DNA from: Rhodospirillales bacterium
GTDB taxonomy: Bacteria; Pseudomonadota; Alphaproteobacteria; Dongiales; Dongiaceae
Direction: 5' to 3'
Assembly: GCA_009885795.1 (NCBI GenBank)
Contig: VFKA01000003.1
Location: 1 to 64,000 of the forward strand
Length of the DNA: 64,000 bases
Shown: positions 37,611-46,303 of the stretch, piece by piece
Position numbering within the stretch: the first letter of the stretch is position 1
How the letters are laid out: each line of letters starts with the position of its first letter
Translations under genes and position numbers: made by a program
Notes under the pieces: model-generated
The model's database searches: none
What the model was told of the DNA's origin: nothing
The model's input: the letters and a program-made list of their open reading frames with translations, nothing else

Positions 37611-39932
37611 TCATCGCCATTGCTTCTCCTCAAGAGTCCAACTACCGCCGGGCAGCTCGCCATCTTTCACAAAGTTGTCCACGACGTTCTTCAGCAACCT
37701 TGAGGTATTGTTCTGATAATTGTTCACTGGAAGCGCGTGCCCGAACGCGATCGAGCCCGTGCTGAACACGGCGCCATTGTTGGGAGCCGTAAAGTACGTC
37801 ATGTCCGCTCGAATTCGGTAGTCGAGGGTTCCCACAAGTCCCGCGTAGGCGTAAAGCAACTCCTCCGTGACCAACACGTAGTTGTCGCTATGGCCGCCGG
37901 ATGAGGCGATAATCCGGGTATGCGGCGGCGTACCCAGCGACAGGTCGTAGCGATCCAGCTCCACGCCTGCCGCGCCACCATACGCCAACCCTTCGTCTCC
38001 AATGATCTCGCCCTCGATGCCCTCCGTAATCCAGGATACGGTCCTGTGATAACTGTCAGGCATCCTTCGGAACGGCGCGCTAGTTTCGAAACCCTCCGCG
38101 ATAAACCCTACGCCGGTCAGTTTCTGCGGCGCCCGTCCCCGGTTCCGCCACAGTCCACTCTTCTCGCCCGTCGTCTGGAGATAGTGTTCACCGGCCCTCG
38201 CCGCCCACGCGCGCATGCCCGAGTCTAGCTTTCTGACCTCCATGCACCACGGCTCGTCTTCGTAAAATCCGACGCACCAGTAGTAACCGTTGCCCCCCAT
38301 GTAGATAAGACGCCCACCCAGCGCAACAAAATCCTCCTGGGCATCCAGCATGCTTTCCGACACATACTCCGGATGCGTACCGGTGATCACGCATTTGTAT
38401 GGCGCCAAGGCAGCCAATCCTTCCCGATGCAGATCCTCATCGGTAATGACGTCGTACTGGTGCCCGCACTGTTCCAACCAACCGATAATCGACAGGTCCG
38501 CGGGAAACTGCCAGGGAATATTCATGCTCGAAATGCGATACTTGGGCCTCATATTTACAATGGGCCTTTTGTATGAACTGAACGAAACTCCGGCGCCGTC
38601 CTCATAGCTGTCGTAGGTGGAAAGTCCGAAGTCGCGGTGTTTATAGGTCTCGATATCGATGTCCGAGATTATGGGTGGCTGACCCGTCATCGGTTGAATA
38701 ATCTGCGCGTCGAAACTCAACTTTTCGTTGGCGTACGCCAAGTAACTCGCCGTCGGTACGAGGAAGCAAAGTTTCGATTCCGGCTTCGCGGGCCGAACGA
38801 AAAAAACGATGTACTCCTCGCTCAAGCCGACGCCATCCCCCGCTCTCAGGCGAATCGCGTAGGCGCCACTTCTCAGATCCCCGGGGATCCGCATGGTCTT
38901 CGTCACTTCCCACCCGCAATCGGTAACCGCCTCCTGGTGAAACTCTATGCCGCCATATTCACTCGGCGAAAGCCTGAAACAGTCATTCTTCCCGGACCAA
39001 TTCCATCCAGTGAGACACCGGACCGGGTGATTTACGCCCCTGGCCGTCAACGCATTTGGCCCTGTATCCAATACCGAGGTGCCGATTCCGTTTTCCGTGT
39101 AGCCCGCGGTGGTGTCCCAGAACGCCACGATGGAGTCCTCCGCCGGCCGCCGGCCGCCGCGGATGCTATCCATTTCCTCGCGCGATAGTACGCGGTTACA
39201 TACTCCGAACCTGTCGATCTTGCCGGAGTACGTATCGTTAATAAAACGCCCCCTCAGTTCATGAAAATCCCGAGCACCAGCCACAACGAACGGGACATCC
39301 TCTCTGTTCTTCTGTTTGAATCTGAATTTCGTTTGTACATGTGAACTGAATTCGTATGGCGCAACCTTGCCTATCAGCGAATTGTATCTGTTCAGCAACC
39401 CATCTTGGTACAACGTCGCCGTTCCAGTCTCGTGGTCGAAGCTGACGCCGACGAAATACCACACCTTCTTGATTAACGGCAGTTCCGCCATGACATAGTC
39501 GACCTCCTTGCCGTCACCGACCCAGAACTCCAACCGCCCCTGAGGATTGATTCCAAGTCCATAGCCCTCATTCGTTCTCGTGTCCCATCTCCCCATCACG
39601 CATTGGCGTCGTCCTTTGTTTGGCAGGGTCGGCCAGACGTAACAGAATAGTGAAAAACTCCCGCCGATATTCAGTCGCCGCTCCGAGTCGTCGACTATCA
39701 AGTACGACCCCAGCTGAGTGAACTGCTTCTTGACGGACCAGACGCCATTGACGGGATGGTCGATTTCCCGCGCAACGAAACCCGGCCCATCGGGATGCTC
39801 GTCACCGTGAATCAGGCGCACAAGCTGCGCATCGGCGGTAGCCGTTCCATCGGCACTGACGTGAAGGTCGATACTATCGCCCTGCTTGACGGAGATCTTG
39901 TTCGCGTAACCGAAGATCTTGATTTCTGCCAT
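37611..39932 (-). CDS. dmfA2: N,N-dimethylformamidase-like large (beta) subunit
   Basis: 773 residues, close to the ~760 of the characterised enzyme. Residues 1-90 form a beta-rich N-terminal domain. Residues 90-270 are a LamG/concanavalin-like jelly roll (ending RFGVCNRVLSREEMDSIRGG). The C-terminal ~400 residues form the amidohydrolase core. The mononuclear iron ligands reported, as I recall, for the Paracoccus enzyme (Tyr440, His519, Glu521) have direct counterparts: Tyr440 in GLSTYDSYEDG, and His520 and Glu522 in GTHPEYVSE. The enzyme hydrolyses N-substituted formamides to formate plus an amine. The small-subunit gene lies immediately upstream (25-base gap). A related N-substituted amide may be the real substrate. 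Confidence 0.85.
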   Translation of the reverse strand: MAEIKIFGYANKISVKQGDSIDLHVSADGTATADAQLVRLIHGDEHPDGPGFVAREIDHPVNGVWSVKKQFTQLGSYLIVDDSERRLNIGGSFSLFCYVWPTLPNKGRRQCVMGRWDTRTNEGYGLGINPQGRLEFWVGDGKEVDYVMAELPLIKKVWYFVGVSFDHETGTATLYQDGLLNRYNSLIGKVAPYEFSSHVQTKFRFKQKNREDVPFVVAGARDFHELRGRFINDTYSGKIDRFGVCNRVLSREEMDSIRGGRRPAEDSIVAFWDTTAGYTENGIGTSVLDTGPNALTARGVNHPVRCLTGWNWSGKNDCFRLSPSEYGGIEFHQEAVTDCGWEVTKTMRIPGDLRSGAYAIRLRAGDGVGLSEEYIVFFVRPAKPESKLCFLVPTASYLAYANEKLSFDAQIIQPMTGQPPIISDIDIETYKHRDFGLSTYDSYEDGAGVSFSSYKRPIVNMRPKYRISSMNIPWQFPADLSIIGWLEQCGHQYDVITDEDLHREGLAALAPYKCVITGTHPEYVSESMLDAQEDFVALGGRLIYMGGNGYYWCVGFYEDEPWCMEVRKLDSGMRAWAARAGEHYLQTTGEKSGLWRNRGRAPQKLTGVGFIAEGFETSAPFRRMPDSYHRTVSWITEGIEGEIIGDEGLAYGGAAGVELDRYDLSLGTPPHTRIIASSGGHSDNYVLVTEELLYAYAGLVGTLDYRIRADMTYFTAPNNGAVFSTGSIAFGHALPVNNYQNNTSRLLKNVVDNFVKDGELPGGSWTLEEKQWR

Positions 39933-39957: not shown

Positions 39958-40332
39958 TCAGGCGTCCAGTTCCATCAATTCGCGAACCCGAAGAAGAAAG
40001 ATCTCGTGATACGTTTCCTCCGCCGCCGCGTACTCCCTGTCATTCACCCCGCTCAACGGTGCGTCTCGATTTCCGGACAATTGGGCGATCCGAAACTTGC
40101 CTGACTTGCCATCCCGTTTGACCACGTACTTGTCCCTCTGGGGTGCATGGCGGAAATACATCAGCAATCTTTCAAGCGGCTCGGTGTGTTGCCCGAGCGG
40201 GCTCTTCCGGTGTTCTTCGATAATTTCATCGCATATCACCGTCCGCAGGTACTCCCTTTGCTTCTTGTCGAATAATCGACGATAGACAACGTCCCGATCA
40301 TCCGACTCCATCGCGTGGTCCTGCCGCACCAT
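39958..40332 (-). CDS. dmfA1: N,N-dimethylformamidase-like small (alpha) subunit
   Basis: 124 residues, matching the ~130-residue small subunit of DMFase. Start at 40332 is supported by GGAG seven bases upstream. The conserved core is QREYLRTVICDEIIEEHRKS-PLGQHTEPLERLLMYFRH, followed by RDKYVVKRD and the C-terminal EETYHEIF helix. The same domain occurs as the tail of the LivM-like permease encoded just upstream. By hand, the two align without gaps over 110 residues with about 56 identities. The small subunit is needed for assembly of the large one in the known enzyme; its exact role is not settled. Confidence 0.83.
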   Translation of the reverse strand: MVRQDHAMESDDRDVVYRRLFDKKQREYLRTVICDEIIEEHRKSPLGQHTEPLERLLMYFRHAPQRDKYVVKRDGKSGKFRIAQLSGNRDAPLSGVNDREYAAAEETYHEIFLLRVRELMELDA

Positions 40333-40503: not shown

Positions 40504-42165
40504 TTATGCCTCAAGAAGATCATAGACCCGACGCCGAAACACGCCATGATAAGCCTCTTCCACGGTCTCGTATTCTTTGTCTTCCACGAGTCGAGGGGAG
40601 GTTCCGCGAACTCCAGAGAATGCAACGATCTTGTACCGCTTGCCTCTTGAATCGCGCCTGATTGCGTATTTATCGTTCTGAGGGGTGCGGCGGAAGTAAA
40701 GTAACAACCGTTCCAACGCCTCGCTGTGTTGCCCGAGCGGCTTGTTTTTGTGTTCTTCAATAACCTCTTCACACACTAGCGTCTTTAGGTGTTCTCGCTG
40801 CATCTTGTCGAAGCGCTTACGGTAGAGAATATCCTTGTCATCGATCTCCGTCGCCTCTTCGGGTAGCGCCTCTCCACCCTTCTCGGTTCGACTCGACCGC
40901 CACTCTCCCTTCTTCTTGTCCCGCCATGCCCTGAACTGCTGTTTCATACCGAACAGACCGTTTTTCAGGAACAGCACAACGAACAACATTAACACGCCGA
41001 TCATGATGTGCCTGATGGGCCCCAAGGTGATAAATACCTTGTCAAGCACCACGACAATAAGGGTGCCCGCCACCGCCCCTTCCACCCTGCCAATACCGCC
41101 AATCGTCAGCATCGCTAAGCCCAGGAGGACGGTATCGAATCCGAATATGGCGTAAGCCACGCCGCGGTACTGAGCCGTGTAGAATCCCCCGATGAATCCC
41201 AGCGCCACCGACGAAACTAGGAAAACGGTGACTCGCGCCTGCCTATAGTTGACGCCCGTTGCCTCCGCGAACGCTTCGCGTTTCTCCGGAGCCATTCTCA
41301 GTATTCTGCCCAACCGTCTGCCGTCTATGAAGCGGAACAGAAAAAGCGAGGCGACGAGCAAGGCGAATGCCCCGTAATACGAGACCACGGATTGCGTCAA
41401 TGGCGCCCACGCCGCGCCAATGTACGTGGACGCCCCGTACAGACCGCCGCTCGCGGAGCCGAACTCCGAGGACGTGACAAAGTAGACCCTGCAGAGTTCG
41501 TTGAGCCCAAGGGTCAATAGCGCGTAGTAGAAGCCGTCCAGACGCAGTGCCGGAAGCGCCAGAATCCCGCCGAACACGATCCCGACCAGCATGCCAATCG
41601 GGGGAAGCATCCACCACGGCAGGCCGAGATTGATCGACAGCCATGCGGTCAGGAAAGCCGCCGTACCCACCACGGCGTATGTCGCAAGAGAGAAGATGCT
41701 TGCCGTACCGATGACCAAGGTCCAGCAAACATTTATTGCGGCGAAAATTCCAAAGGTAGCGCCGGCTGTAAGGATTGTGAATTGCAGGCTCTCCGGCACA
41801 AAGAGAGGAACCAGAACCAGCGCCAGCAGCGAGATGGCCCAATAGATCGGCCGCTTGTCCACTATCGACTTCTCGGCCTTGAGCGTCTTCCTGTTGTACA
41901 ACCCTCGGATCAGCAGCACCGACCGGCGGGTTGGCCACCATCTCTGTCTTTTCCAAAGGCGCTTACCGTGATTGGCCCATTTATGTATGTACTTGAAGCG
42001 CCCCACCTTGTGCAGGGGCGCCTTGTACGACGTAGTCTTGCGCCAGACCGTTCTCGGATCCTCGACCCGGATGCTTGGCACATCGTAGTTGCCACCCTTC
42101 GCCCCCCAGACCGCCAGGGGGTTCTTCCAAAGGTACTGGTCGTCATTCTTCCTGGGGGTACTCAT
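40504..42165 (-). CDS. LivM-like ABC permease fused to a dimethylformamidase small-subunit domain
   Basis: 553 residues in three parts. Residues 1-105 are a basic, aromatic cytoplasmic extension absent from ordinary LivM. Residues ~105-405 are a branched-chain/amide-type permease with about ten membrane segments, including LPALRLDGFYYALLTLGLNELCR, the ATPase-docking loop region KREAFAEATGVNYRQARVTVF, and GIGRVEGAVAGTLIVVVL. A charged linker (~410-440) leads to residues 442-553, a complete copy of the small-subunit domain encoded at 39958. The frame is uninterrupted across the junction, so the fusion is real at this sequence. It overlaps livH by four bases. I know of no described transporter with this domain. 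It might anchor the amidase large subunit at the import pore. Confidence 0.85.
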   Translation of the reverse strand: MSTPRKNDDQYLWKNPLAVWGAKGGNYDVPSIRVEDPRTVWRKTTSYKAPLHKVGRFKYIHKWANHGKRLWKRQRWWPTRRSVLLIRGLYNRKTLKAEKSIVDKRPIYWAISLLALVLVPLFVPESLQFTILTAGATFGIFAAINVCWTLVIGTASIFSLATYAVVGTAAFLTAWLSINLGLPWWMLPPIGMLVGIVFGGILALPALRLDGFYYALLTLGLNELCRVYFVTSSEFGSASGGLYGASTYIGAAWAPLTQSVVSYYGAFALLVASLFLFRFIDGRRLGRILRMAPEKREAFAEATGVNYRQARVTVFLVSSVALGFIGGFYTAQYRGVAYAIFGFDTVLLGLAMLTIGGIGRVEGAVAGTLIVVVLDKVFITLGPIRHIMIGVLMLFVVLFLKNGLFGMKQQFRAWRDKKKGEWRSSRTEKGGEALPEEATEIDDKDILYRKRFDKMQREHLKTLVCEEVIEEHKNKPLGQHSEALERLLLYFRRTPQNDKYAIRRDSRGKRYKIVAFSGVRGTSPRLVEDKEYETVEEAYHGVFRRRVYDLLEA

Positions 42166-43118
42166 TGCTCCCGCGCCACGTCGAGTATGCCGGCGATGCC
42201 TCGCGGTCTGATCATCAAGATTGCGATGATTATGAGAAACTGTGTAATCAGGACATACTGGCCACCCAGGACTGTTGACGTCAGGGATTCCGCAAACCCG
42301 AGAATGACACTTGCGATCACGGCCCCTCGAACGCTGCCCAGTCCGCCCAACAGCGCGATACTCACGCCCTTGATCAGGGGCGTGATTCCACTGAATGGCG
42401 AAATGTAGTAGGTCTGGGACAGTAGAACAGCGGCAAGCCCGGTCATCGCCCCGGTAATACCCATCACGTAGAATCCGGTCTTGCGTATCCCGATGCCCAC
42501 AATCGAGGCGGCGTGCGGGTTCATCATCATGGCGCGGATCTCCAGGCCACGCCGGCTAGACCTCATCCAGCGAACGATCAAAATCAGCATTACAATCGAG
42601 CAGACAACGATACCAATCTTGTCGGAGGTCAGGACGGTTCCACCAATCTCCACTTGCCAGCGGCCGAATATCTCCGGTAGCGCCTTGTTGCGGGGGCCGA
42701 ACCACCACAGCAGCCCCTGTGACCCAATCAGGCTGATGGCGAGCGTTCCCACCATGCCTCTCACCGTAAAATTCGGTTTCTCGTGGAGCGGGATGAAAAT
42801 CAGCGCGCAAATGATGACGCCGCCGACGGCGCCAACGAGTACACCCGCTGCCAGCACAACAGGCGGGTACTCGGAGAGCGATCGCGAAGTGACGTACGCG
42901 CCATATCCCGCGAACGCAAAGATGAAACCATAACCCAGGTTCAACAGTCCCAGGCTTGACCAGGTGATGGACACCGCCACCGCGATCAGCCCGTAGATAC
43001 AGGCGATCACGATACCGTTGATCAGGATGAATTCTATGTCCAAGAGGGAGCTATCCTCATCTCTGCCGGGACGGTCACGCCTTCCTCCTCTTGATGGATG
43101 AAGCCAGGGACGCTTCAC
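42162..43118 (-). CDS. livH: LivH-like ABC permease
   Basis: 318 residues as drawn. A TTG at 43043 giving MDIEFILINGIVIACIYGL is an attractive alternative start, because family members usually begin near that point and the longer version overlaps livF by 44 bases. About eight membrane segments. Family blocks are ITWSSLGLLNLGYGFIFAFAGYGAYV, the EAA-type loop RAMMMNPHAASIVGIGIRKTGFYVMG and FSGITPLIKGVSIALLGGLGSVRGA. It is the partner of the LivM-DmfA1 fusion. GC content is lower than the genome, like the rest of the island. Confidence 0.88.
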   Translation of the reverse strand: MKRPWLHPSRGGRRDRPGRDEDSSLLDIEFILINGIVIACIYGLIAVAVSITWSSLGLLNLGYGFIFAFAGYGAYVTSRSLSEYPPVVLAAGVLVGAVGGVIICALIFIPLHEKPNFTVRGMVGTLAISLIGSQGLLWWFGPRNKALPEIFGRWQVEIGGTVLTSDKIGIVVCSIVMLILIVRWMRSSRRGLEIRAMMMNPHAASIVGIGIRKTGFYVMGITGAMTGLAAVLLSQTYYISPFSGITPLIKGVSIALLGGLGSVRGAVIASVILGFAESLTSTVLGGQYVLITQFLIIIAILMIRPRGIAGILDVAREQ

Positions 43119-43788
43119 CTTTCAGCTTGCCGGCATGCATTCCGATCACCCGGTCCACCCTGCCTTCCAGCAATGCCACGTTCTGCTCCGCTATGATCAT
43201 CGCGGAGCCACTGAGGTCGATCTTCAACAGCGCTTCCATCACGCCTATTCCTATTTTCGGAGCCAGGCCCAGCGAAGGCTCGTCCGACAGATAGAGTTTC
43301 GCATCCACCATCAAGCCACGACCGATGGACACCATTCTTCGCTCGCCGCCCGACAAGCGCGACACCGGGGTTTTCAACCGATCGCGAAGCGGCGCGAAAA
43401 GTTCCAACACACGTTCCTTCCGTTGCTTCCTGGTCTTCCAAGCTGTCTTGGTAAACGCCCCGCTGTCGAGATGTTCCTCGACGGTCAATCCATGAAACAG
43501 CTCATCGGCCTGCGGCATGAGCGCAAGCCCCTGGCGAACGATCAGGTGCGTGTAGCGGCCCGGGCCCTGGCTTCGTGTCCCTCCCACCTCGCGACCATTG
43601 AACACGATCGACCCCCGTTGCCATCCCGTCAAACCGGCGATGGCATAGAAAAGTGTCGTCTTTCCATGGCCGTTCAGTCCAACCAGGCCGACACGTTCGC
43701 CGGCCTTGATCGTCAGGTCCAGATCATGAATAACCCGCAACGGTCCGTAGCCCGCGGACAATCCATTGACATTCAGAATTTCGTGCAT
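43075..43788 (-). CDS. livF: LivF-like ABC ATPase
   Basis: 237 residues. Walker A GLNGHGKTT (a His in place of the usual Ala), signature LSGGERRMVSIGRGL, and a Walker B with LYLSDEPSLGLAP. It has the short LivF form without the C-terminal BCA domain, and ends KGEASLASSIKRRKA. The His in the P-loop and Ser before DEP are mild variations. The order in the island operon is binding protein, LivG, LivF, LivH, LivM fusion, then enzyme subunits. Confidence 0.9.
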   Translation of the reverse strand: MHEILNVNGLSAGYGPLRVIHDLDLTIKAGERVGLVGLNGHGKTTLFYAIAGLTGWQRGSIVFNGREVGGTRSQGPGRYTHLIVRQGLALMPQADELFHGLTVEEHLDSGAFTKTAWKTRKQRKERVLELFAPLRDRLKTPVSRLSGGERRMVSIGRGLMVDAKLYLSDEPSLGLAPKIGIGVMEALLKIDLSGSAMIIAEQNVALLEGRVDRVIGMHAGKLKGEASLASSIKRRKA

Positions 43789-43804: not shown

Positions 43805-44530
43805 TCAATCGACGGCCTCGAAGTACGCGGCGCGCACCACGGGACTATCGATAATGTCGTGAAGGTGACCCTGCGCAATGATCTCGCCCGCGTCCATCAC
43901 AATCACATTGTCCGCGATCGTCTCGAGCAACTCGATTCTATGCTCCACGATCATGACCGCGATGTTCATCTCCTTGGACAGCATTCTGAGAATCTCGTCG
44001 ATCTCGTCGATCTCGGAATTGATCAGACCCGCGGCGGGCTCATCCATCAACAACAGCTCCGGTCCCCTGAGCAGAAGACAGGCGAGCGACAACTTGCGCC
44101 GGTTGAACGTGTCCAACACGGAAGTAGGCACGCTCTCGTCAACGACGAAATTGACCAGATCCGAGGCATACTCGGCGTCAAAACGAGTGAGGTTAGGCTT
44201 GTAGGCCTGCCTCGCGGCCTTCAATGTTTGCCCGACGGTGAGGTCTTCCGGCACGACCGGGGCCTGATAAGTTCTCCCGATGCCGATTCGGGATCTCTCG
44301 TACAAATGCGAATCGGTTATGTCTTTGCCCTTGTAGAAGACCTTGCCGGTTTTTGGCGCGTACCTGCCCGACAAAATTTCGACCAGGCTGGTCTTTCCGG
44401 CGCCGTTCGGACCGATGATGCCCAGAACCTTGCCTGGATTGATCTGCAGTTCGATGTTTCTGAGGATTTCCCTGCCGCCGAGGTCGAGTGAAAGGTTCTC
44501 ACAAGCGAGTAAGGGAGCAGCATCATTCAT
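43805..44530 (-). CDS. livG: LivG-like ABC ATPase
   Basis: 241 residues from the ATG at 44530, where MNDAAPLLACENLSLDLGG begins with a G-rich ribosome-binding stretch upstream. Walker A GPNGAGKTSLVEILSGRY, the LivG insert TDSHLYERSRIGIGRTYQAPVVPEDLTVG, signature region RKLSLACLLLRGPELLLMDEPAAGL and the switch His in VEHRIELLETIAD. The LSGG motif is degenerate (RRKLSLACLL), as in some urea/amide-type LivG proteins. It stops 16 bases before livF. Confidence 0.88.
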   Translation of the reverse strand: MNDAAPLLACENLSLDLGGREILRNIELQINPGKVLGIIGPNGAGKTSLVEILSGRYAPKTGKVFYKGKDITDSHLYERSRIGIGRTYQAPVVPEDLTVGQTLKAARQAYKPNLTRFDAEYASDLVNFVVDESVPTSVLDTFNRRKLSLACLLLRGPELLLMDEPAAGLINSEIDEIDEILRMLSKEMNIAVMIVEHRIELLETIADNVIVMDAGEIIAQGHLHDIIDSPVVRAAYFEAVD

Positions 44531-44688
44531 GAGGCCTGCCCCCCTTGCCACAAAGGTCACAGAGACCGTATTCGAAACCCAACGAGATCCACCTCAACGA
44601 CCGACGACGCGAAGAACGGACAATGGGCCGCCGCCCCATGGCGGCGAAACCCGCTTGAACCGCTCTGCGCGGGTTTCGCTAACGGACT
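44531..44688. other. Gap between binding-protein gene and livG
   Basis: 158 bases without a plausible gene. The stretch includes the inverted pair CCGCCCCATGG/CCATGGCGGCG-like bases around 44629-44648. A stem-loop here could attenuate transcription between the highly expressed binding protein and the rest of the operon, as is common in liv-type operons. Confidence 0.35.
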
Positions 44689-46014
44689 CTAGCCCCACCA
44701 GGGCGCGGGCCGGAGCTTGGATTCGCTGATCGCGTCGGGCCAGATGATCTTGTGCTGGACATCTTGAACCTGCACGAACAGCTGGCTCATGCCGGTTTCA
44801 TGCGAATCCGCCTGGTTGCCGAATCCGTTGTCGGGGTAGTGGAGTGCTTCCTGGTACTCGTTGTTCATATCCATCATGCCACACACGCCCCTGAACGGGT
44901 GGCTTCTAATCCAGTCACAATTCTTCTTGAAATCTTCCGGTGTGGTATCGACCGCCCCGGTGGCATTCCAGGAAGCTTCGAGGTACTGGACGATATCGTA
45001 TCCATTTCCCGTATAGACCAGCCCCATCGTGTTTTTCTCGGGCGTGCCGAACTCCGGGAACCGCTCTAGGTACATTTTCCGGAAATCCTGGCCGATCTTC
45101 TCGCCGTATACCCCCAGCACGGTGCTCCAGCAGAAACCTTCGGTGGCGGAACCTCCAAGCTCCAGGAATTCCGGTTGCGAGGGACCGTACTGCAGATAGA
45201 CGAGTGCGTCCTTCACCGGGTCGGCGGCAAACTGTTTGCAGAACGCCGCGTACTCCGAAGCCACCCAGTGATCGATCATGATCGCGCCGGCATCCACCTC
45301 CTTCAGTTTCTGAATGACGGGAGCCCAGTCGTTAACCGGATACTGGATGTCGGTGACCTCGGCCAACTCGAAATCATACTTCGGGATCGATTGCCTGGCA
45401 GCCTTGAGGATGGTCTGATTGTACCCAACCTGCTCGGCGACGATGTGGACCTTCCTGTTCTTCGGCTTCCATCCCTGCACTTTCTCCATCTCCGTCAGCC
45501 ACATTGGATATGTCCAGCCGTAATTGACCTCGGATGGATCGGTTTGGAACACTTGGCTGTATTTCTCCGGATCGGCCTTGAATGCCTCGGTTGCAGCGCG
45601 TTGCGTGTTGCCCTGGAGGTACGGGCATTTATATTTGGCCGACTCATCCATTGCCGGAATTGGCGCAAAGATGAAGGCATTCGATATCGCGTGTACTTTC
45701 TTGTCGATGCATGCCGCAATACTTTGCCTGGCACTCTCGGGAGACAGTTTGTCGAGGTCCGGCACGAATAGTTCTATCTCTCGGCCCAGGACACCTCCAG
45801 CAGCGTTTATTTTCTCAAGCGCGAGTATGGATCCGTTTAGATGATCCTGGTCATCCGCAACTCCGTAGGGTGTCGAAAGCGAAGAGGGTATACCCAAAAT
45901 TATCTTCTCCGCGGCATTCACCCGCCTGACCCAGGGCGCTGGAAAGGTAAGCGCGGCCGCGCCGGCCGCCACGCCCTTGAGAAACCTACGTCGCGCGCCT
46001 TGTGTCTTGTTCAT
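44689..46014 (-). CDS. Amide/branched-chain-type periplasmic binding protein, island transporter
   Basis: 441 residues. Twin-arginine signal (MNKTQGARRRFLKGVAAGAA, cleavage after a ...VNAAE site). The mature protein begins KIILGIPSSLSTPYGVADDQDHLNGSILALEKINAAGGVLGREIEL, the Peripla_BP_6 start. Family blocks are CIDKKVHAISNAFIFAPIPAM, VGYNQTILKAARQSIPKYDF and NTMGLVYTGNGYDIVQYLEASW. In this superfamily AmiC- and UrtA-like members bind short amides and urea. Given the enzyme downstream, an N-substituted formamide or amide is a reasonable ligand. It is the first gene of the island operon and lies next to tRNA-Ser. Confidence 0.88.
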   Translation of the reverse strand: MNKTQGARRRFLKGVAAGAAALTFPAPWVRRVNAAEKIILGIPSSLSTPYGVADDQDHLNGSILALEKINAAGGVLGREIELFVPDLDKLSPESARQSIAACIDKKVHAISNAFIFAPIPAMDESAKYKCPYLQGNTQRAATEAFKADPEKYSQVFQTDPSEVNYGWTYPMWLTEMEKVQGWKPKNRKVHIVAEQVGYNQTILKAARQSIPKYDFELAEVTDIQYPVNDWAPVIQKLKEVDAGAIMIDHWVASEYAAFCKQFAADPVKDALVYLQYGPSQPEFLELGGSATEGFCWSTVLGVYGEKIGQDFRKMYLERFPEFGTPEKNTMGLVYTGNGYDIVQYLEASWNATGAVDTTPEDFKKNCDWIRSHPFRGVCGMMDMNNEYQEALHYPDNGFGNQADSHETGMSQLFVQVQDVQHKIIWPDAISESKLRPAPWWG

Positions 46015-46207: not shown

Positions 46208-46226
46208 GTTGGCGGAGGGAGAGGGA
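46208..46226. repeat. Right direct repeat (attR-like) within tRNA-Ser 3' end
   Basis: gttggcggagggagaggga, identical to 37436-37454. It covers the CCA end and 3' acceptor side of the tRNA-Ser gene, so the tRNA remains intact after integration, as expected for tRNA-targeted islands. Confidence 0.85.
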
Positions 46227-46303
46227 TTCGAACCCTCGATAGGGGTTTAAGCCCCTATAACGGTTTAGCAAACCGCCGCCTTCAGCCACTCGGCCATCCC
46301 TCC
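46210..46303 (-). tRNA. tRNA-Ser (anticodon GCU)
   Basis: 94 bases with an encoded CCA. Acceptor GGAGGGA pairs with TCCCTCC, the D arm is GCCGAGTGGCTGAAGGC, the anticodon stem GCGGT/ACCGT flanks the loop TTGCTAA (anticodon GCU), a long variable arm built on GGGGCTTAAACCCC typifies class II serine tRNAs, and the T arm is GAGGGTTCGAATCCCTC. It is the integration site of the island at lower coordinates. Confidence 0.97.

Follow-up and report, generated by a model that had tools for sequence, protein, structure and literature searches.

A LivM-type permease fused to a dimethylformamidase small subunit: a probable tether and, in relatives, a candidate dual-product gene

Why should the permease of an ABC importer end in a subunit of a hydrolase, and does such a tail hold the enzyme at the importer or supply the subunit in free form? 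The question arises from an operon in the window, the 64,000-nucleotide stretch analysed here (Rhodospirillales bacterium contig VFKA01000003.1, positions 1-64,000), in which a LivM-type permease frame runs on into the small subunit (DmfA1, here A1) of a dimethylformamidase (DMFase), beside genes for a second A1 and for a large catalytic subunit (DmfA2, here A2). A first-pass annotation had proposed that the tail tethers the hydrolase to the import pore, and knew of no precedent for the fusion.

The fusion gene and its operon

The features of the operon are collected in Table 1. LivM::A1 is, as first read, a single uninterrupted frame that holds a full small-subunit domain. Its permease core matches Pfam BPD_transp_2 with an E value of 1.7e-21, and in the PDB the protein is matched by sequence through its tail only, to 6lvb_B, listed as 'N,N-dimethylformamidase small subunit', with an E value of 1.5e-7. 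AlphaFold2, run on 67 fusions, gave a model with a mean pLDDT of 80.7 in which the helices of the permease core are followed by a basic helix, a short linker of low confidence and the tail; confidence is lowest at linker residues 428-430, which are probably flexible. With this model as the query, the top Foldseek matches in the PDB are 6lvv_B and 6lvb_B (target-normalised TM 0.78-0.80, E 2.6e-4), and BtuC-type permeases rank after them. By sequence and by fold, the best PDB match of the tail is thus the Paracoccus DMFase small subunit, which bears out the kinship claimed for it.

Table 1. Operon features and upstream tRNA gene in the window.
Feature	Position	Strand	Remarks
LivM::DmfA1 fusion gene	40504..42165	(-)	one open ATG frame, 553 aa
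N-terminal extension, residues 1-104	41854..42165	(-)	basic, soluble, before first membrane helix (AlphaFold2 helix H105-122)
Permease core and basic C-terminal helix, residues 105-428	40882..41853	(-)	BPD_transp_2 (Pfam 131-397)
Linker SSRTEKGGEALPEE, residues 424-437	40855..40896	(-)	
DMFase small-subunit domain (DmfA1-like tail), residues 436-552	40510..40860	(-)	
Separate DmfA1-like gene	39958..40332	(-)	124 aa (possibly 117 aa from internal Met); faster-evolving
DmfA2-like large catalytic subunit	37611..39932	(-)	773 aa
LivH-type permease	42162..43118	(-)	
LivF-type ATPase	43075..43788	(-)	
LivG-type ATPase	43805..44560	(-)	
Peripla_BP_6 substrate-binding protein	44689..46014	(-)	Tat-type signal; operon's first gene
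tRNA-Ser(GCT)	46210-46303	(-)	about 200 bases upstream of operon's first gene

The tail and the product of the separate A1 gene, which itself matches 6lvb_B (E 2.3e-8), align without gaps over fusion residues 436-552 with 59 identities in 117 positions (E 9e-46), so that an earlier hand count of about 56 in 110 was essentially right. The N-terminal extension of about 105 residues, which had been called unusual, is real in the model and conserved in most relatives at about 40-76% identity, being shorter in a distant clade. Against NCBIfam cut-offs the permease scores far below both LivM (62.6 against 366 bits) and UrtC (43.5 against 296.2), and 'branched-chain amino acid' is therefore a label for its fold and not for its substrate. 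With the LivM/UrtC permeases of branched-chain amino acid, urea and amide importers it shares the BPD_transp_2 fold and the substrate-binding protein (SBP), LivG, LivF and LivH partners; unlike them, it has a soluble extension at one end and an enzyme subunit at the other.

On the minus strand the genes follow in the order SBP, LivG, LivF, LivH, LivM::A1, A1, A2. BPD_transp_2 permeases, two ATPases and a Peripla_BP_6 protein thus lie in one operon, which marks a Liv-type ABC importer. The LivH stop overlaps the LivM start, and relatives suggest that LivH itself starts further in (293 aa). As to the tRNA gene upstream, tRNA genes are common integration points. No near-identical plasmid copy of the region was found.

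The large subunit matches 6lvb_A over its full length (residues 1-761, E 3e-174) and Pfam DMFA2_C at 305 bits. In the 6lvb_A alignment its residues Y400, Y440, E522, H520 and N548 fall on Paracoccus Y399, Y440, E521, H519 and N547; according to PMC7686228, the first three of these are the iron ligands and H519 is the essential catalytic residue, with N547 also named. The pocket residue F693 is replaced by Tyr. Judged on this alignment, A2 belongs to the DMFase-type iron amidohydrolases, with hydrolysis of DMF itself only putative here.

The resemblance to Paracoccus DmfA1/DmfA2 (PDB 6lvb; pAMI2) therefore extends to a full-length homologue of A2 with all published iron-site and catalytic residues, a tail with the sequence and fold of the small subunit, and the order of A1 before A2. 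In Paracoccus, however, A1 is a free 15-kDa protein encoded beside a LuxR regulator and without an ABC transporter, whereas in the window it is the C-terminal end of a permease whose gene belongs to an ABC importer operon.

The window's genome encodes two more large subunits of the DMFA2 family (G000:C82, locus L035, and G000:C32, locus L042). The former occurs with a free A1 and adjoins another Liv importer operon, where no fused tail was found; the association of enzyme and importer thus recurs without fusion.

Occurrence and locus arrangements

Among 143 genomes, comprising the window's own and its relatives, the fusion was also found in three others (G003, G004 and G017). A2 starts about 50 bases after the fusion in G004 and 8 bases after it in G017, leaving no room for a free A1. 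Species genomes scanned with free A1 as the query gave no matches; the same scan with an alignment of the tail gave 90 relatives, 80 of which make up the locus set. The permease-tail fusion is present in 80/80 of the retrieved loci, and A2 lies downstream in the same operon in all 77 that are not cut by a contig end, with the conserved order SBP-LivG-LivF-LivH-LivM::A1-[A1]-A2. As the same fusion with the same linker occurs in 80 independently assembled loci, an assembly join or a frameshift is ruled out.

The hosts include Rhodobacter, Roseovarius, Rhodopseudomonas, Bradyrhizobium, Methylobacterium, Methylopila, Hyphomicrobium, Methylobacillus and Burkholderiales, among others, and the fusion is also carried on plasmids of Agrobacterium, Aminobacter and Ensifer; Rhizobium plasmids match as well, with the same annotation. 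Of 399 genomes sampled evenly across the phylum, two besides the window's own held it, so that the fusion is widespread but not common. The view that it lacks precedent stands only in part: 80 loci and several plasmids carry it, and those parts of the dimethylformamidase literature that were consulted (transporter and neighbourhood context, and the structure paper) contained no description of it.

Three candidates were set aside. A long open frame at G302/L126 proved to be a free A1 beside A2, a 483-aa open frame is not a permease, and a Halalkalicoccus 'inner-membrane translocator', a would-be archaeal fusion, is only 180 aa long and is a free A1. The contig of one fusion locus (L081) bears the label Klebsiella pneumoniae (MAG), and in the tree it stands closest to gammaproteobacterial MAGs, so that mis-binning is likely.

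The loci fall into three arrangements. In 55/80 the tail is the sole small subunit, no free A1 lying beside A2 (tail-only loci); in 11/80, the window's clade, a free A1 lies between the fusion and A2; and a further 11/80, mostly Bradyrhizobium and relatives, read A2-A1-A2. The remaining 3/80 are cut by a contig end. The other A1 of locus L056 is part of a separate operon and was not counted as a free A1 beside A2. In an unrooted tree of the permease part the window's clade forms a single supported group, and the free A1 genes require two changes within a mostly tail-only background.

Several loci depart from these plans. On Aminobacter pMDW2 (L144:12470-17213, plus strand) two tandem large subunits follow one fusion, with no free A1. 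Methylobacillus arboreus has a porin-like gene, judged by eye to be outer-membrane, between LivM::A1 and A2 (L067:9447-10598, plus strand), and the related G719 has a gap of equal size there. In another genome, L033:5391-7907 (minus strand) is a natural A1-A2 fusion, a single 838-aa frame with the small-subunit domain N-terminal to the large subunit, which is in keeping with the coupling proposed below. About 13 loci (L046, L048-L050, L052, L054 and others) also have a second Peripla_BP_6 protein with a PAS histidine kinase and a LuxR-type response regulator, divergent from the operon and about 2-7 kb upstream of LivM, a set that may possibly serve amide sensing. AraC or LuxR regulators lie near the operon in other loci.

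Start signals in the linker

When the fusions are aligned, the linker (RTEKGGEALPEEATE) is nearly invariant and the tail is better conserved than the permease. The codons used for this linker in tail-only loci form a AAAGGAGG-type Shine-Dalgarno (SD) sequence followed by ATG or GTG in 54/55 cases, the remaining one having TTG; an example is GAG AAA GGA GGC GAG ATG CTG CCC, with the start in frame with A1. Where the K-motif is present, ATG or GTG stands directly behind the SD in 52 of 53 tail-only loci and TTG in the 53rd. Loci L111 and L112 have lost the linker Lys and retain GGAGGGGAAGTGATG (GGAGGGG and GTG-ATG). Five more tail-only loci from outside the retrieved set all have ATG with an SD.

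Codon choice goes beyond what the peptide demands. The linker Lys is AAA in 45/53 tail-only loci and the first linker Gly is GGA in 27/53, where the codon usage of the individual genes predicts 12.0 and 4.9; no such excess was seen in the linkers of loci with a free A1. Selection at the protein level cannot explain this bias. Matched conserved columns of the same taxa served as the control: across the 55 tail-only loci, AAA accounts for 0.85 of the codons at the linker Lys, more than at any other of the 11 conserved Lys columns compared (median 0.20), and GGA is used most, among 37 Gly columns, at the two of the linker (0.53 and 0.27; median 0.07); loci with a free A1 again show no such excess. 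The median pairing energy with the anti-SD is -13.45 kcal/mol at the internal start, compared with -8.95 where LivM starts, -5.9 where A2 starts and -3.5 at 1472 other in-frame ATG/GTG codons. Finally, in two clades the free A1 genes start with the Met that corresponds to this one, reading MLPEDAIE in L044 and MLPLEYD in Bradyrhizobium.

An in-frame start behind an SD, conserved beyond amino-acid needs, is thus present in the tail-only relatives and absent from the window. There the linker codons are GAG AAG GGT GGA GAG GCG CTA, without an ATG, GTG or TTG start, and 10/11 retrieved loci of the window's clade have neither ATG nor GTG, two of them having TTG with a weak SD. Ensifer likewise lacks the internal start signal and has a free A1. 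Where the free A1 lies behind A2, an ATG persists in 7/11 loci, with a weaker SD. A Fisher test of internal start against free A1 gives p 7.5e-9, a value that ignores kinship and is inflated because free A1 was gained independently only twice; with two gains, an independent-pairs test has no power, and the matched columns were used in place of the Fisher test.

Given the strong ribosome binding site and start codon in the linker, one livM::A1 gene in tail-only lineages probably makes both a tethered and a free subunit, as far as can be judged from codons, and it is this that appears to be the most interesting feature of the relatives. Two other readings of the linker dispense with internal initiation. 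The tail might be only a tether or a regulator of transport, for example with the state of A2 or of its substrate gating import, and the SD-like stretch, which could serve ribosome pausing, or else membrane insertion, would have no part in starting translation. The peptide EKGGE..PEEATE does remain nearly invariant as protein even where the SD is lost; a pausing site, however, needs no start codon at SD spacing, and free A1 genes that begin at exactly the linker Met would be left unexplained, which makes this reading improbable. It is highly improbable that a protease releases A1 by cutting the full-length protein in the linker: an invariant stretch in the least confidently modelled, probably flexible part of the protein would suit a cleavage site, but the synonymous AAA/GGA bias and the ATG/GTG would have no explanation.

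Internal initiation of the kind favoured here has precedents. The C-terminal domain of SpaO/SctQ of type III secretion is also made alone in this way (PMC13059759, PMC4295842), and Cas11 is made from the gene of the Cascade large subunit (PMC11899642). In these genes, as predicted for LivM::A1, translation from an internal start in the same frame supplies the C-terminal domain to the complex as a subunit of its own; LivM::A1 differs in that its long form is a membrane permease, its short form would be an enzyme subunit, and the arrangement is predicted from codons.

Probable tether, predicted free subunit and likely substrate

Is the tail then more than a source of A1? Within the window's clade, the fused tail has a mean pairwise identity of 79%, higher than A2 (75%) and the permease (72%) and far higher than free A1 (45%), and the linker is invariant. 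This clade has lost the internal start and possesses a free A1, so that it does not need the tail as a source of free subunit; the fused tail being the conserved copy, selection evidently acts on it in its fused form, in support of tethering. A tail that was merely tolerated would be expected to decay. The retention of the tail at an identity above that of A2, despite a separate A1 and without an internal start, therefore counts against the possibility, which is unlikely, that the fusion serves mainly to encode A1 within livM, with free A1 as the working subunit and a permease tail that tethers nothing. That possibility would be in keeping with the strong, conserved internal start of tail-only lineages, and the only structurally characterised DMFase is soluble (PMC7686228). 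With the tail the only small subunit beside A2 in most loci and the better conserved copy in the window's clade, and with the published large subunit inactive on its own (PMC7686228), it is probably a real tether. The first-pass proposal is thus supported as to tethering and has to be amended in one respect: the internal start of tail-only lineages would yield a free subunit too, and the tail is then not only a tether. As the tail is kept where a free A1 exists, and the start is kept where the tail is alone, both forms appear to be required.

A stoichiometric reason may be suggested. PMC7686228 describes Paracoccus DMFase as an alpha2beta2 dimer (or a dimer of dimers), and its large subunit as inactive without the small one. 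This would agree with an A2 dimer that holds one A1 belonging to the importer tail and a second in free form; free A1 is perhaps needed because an importer has one LivM and the DMFase dimer is A2(2)A1(2).

Taken as a whole, the observations are best explained, and we think likely so, by an importer and a DMFase-type hydrolase that are physically coupled through the tail, with free A1 made as well. The operon would encode a dedicated Liv-type ABC importer coupled to a DMFase-type iron amidohydrolase, the LivM tail acting on the cytoplasmic side as a genuine A1 that binds the A2 of the next gene and so holds the enzyme at the importer. Most lineages would obtain both forms from one livM::A1 gene, the tethered form by full-length translation and the free form (about 120 aa, MLPEEATE...) from the in-frame start behind the strong linker SD. 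In two lineages a separate A1 gene would have arisen; in that of the window the internal start would have been lost after this gain, and the tethered tail kept under strong selection. On balance we lean towards the fuller proposal that this is a widespread, undescribed dual-product gene through which each importer builds a membrane-bound amidohydrolase for itself, one of whose small subunits is tethered and the other free. It is possible that substrate passes straight from the import pore to the active site. SulP transporters with a carbonic-anhydrase domain are also transporter-enzyme fusions, in which an enzyme is joined to the protein that presumably carries its substrate; in SulP the entire enzyme is fused, whereas in LivM::A1 only the non-catalytic small subunit is, and it would recruit the catalytic one.

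What the importer carries may be approached through its hosts and neighbours. Many fusion hosts are methylotrophs. Four loci are flanked by mau (methylamine dehydrogenase) genes (L112, L114, L120 and L121) and four by gmaS and/or mgs (N-methylglutamate-pathway) genes (L071, L077, L093 and L106), families which, from their names and established knowledge, we take to denote methylamine use. These flanking genes suggest methylamine as a product; they occur at only 8/80 loci, and the surroundings of the window's operon yielded none. A search of the window's genome for methylamine dehydrogenase gave no match, with the control equally silent, and members of the type III glutamine synthetase family score above cut-off there, which lends slight weight to a methylamine product. 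The best kcat/Km of Paracoccus DMFase is with N-methylformamide (PMC7686228, Table 1). P. aminophilus has a second dmfA1-dmfA2 locus with no link to the use of DMF (PMC4543880), and the substrate therefore cannot be carried over. The best guess is a small N-methylated amide, such as N-methylformamide, which would give methylamine and a carboxylic acid.

Annotation pipelines call these proteins plain 'branched-chain amino acid ABC transporter permease', which is why the pairing of permease and hydrolase has been overlooked. If the proposal is true, LivM::A1 would offer a clear example from nature of an ABC importer and the enzyme that uses up its cargo being physically joined by way of that enzyme's own small subunit, and it makes channelling from import to hydrolysis testable. 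It would also provide a metabolic example of internal in-frame initiation setting the levels of tethered and free subunit, and of the evolutionary replacement of an internal start by a separate gene.
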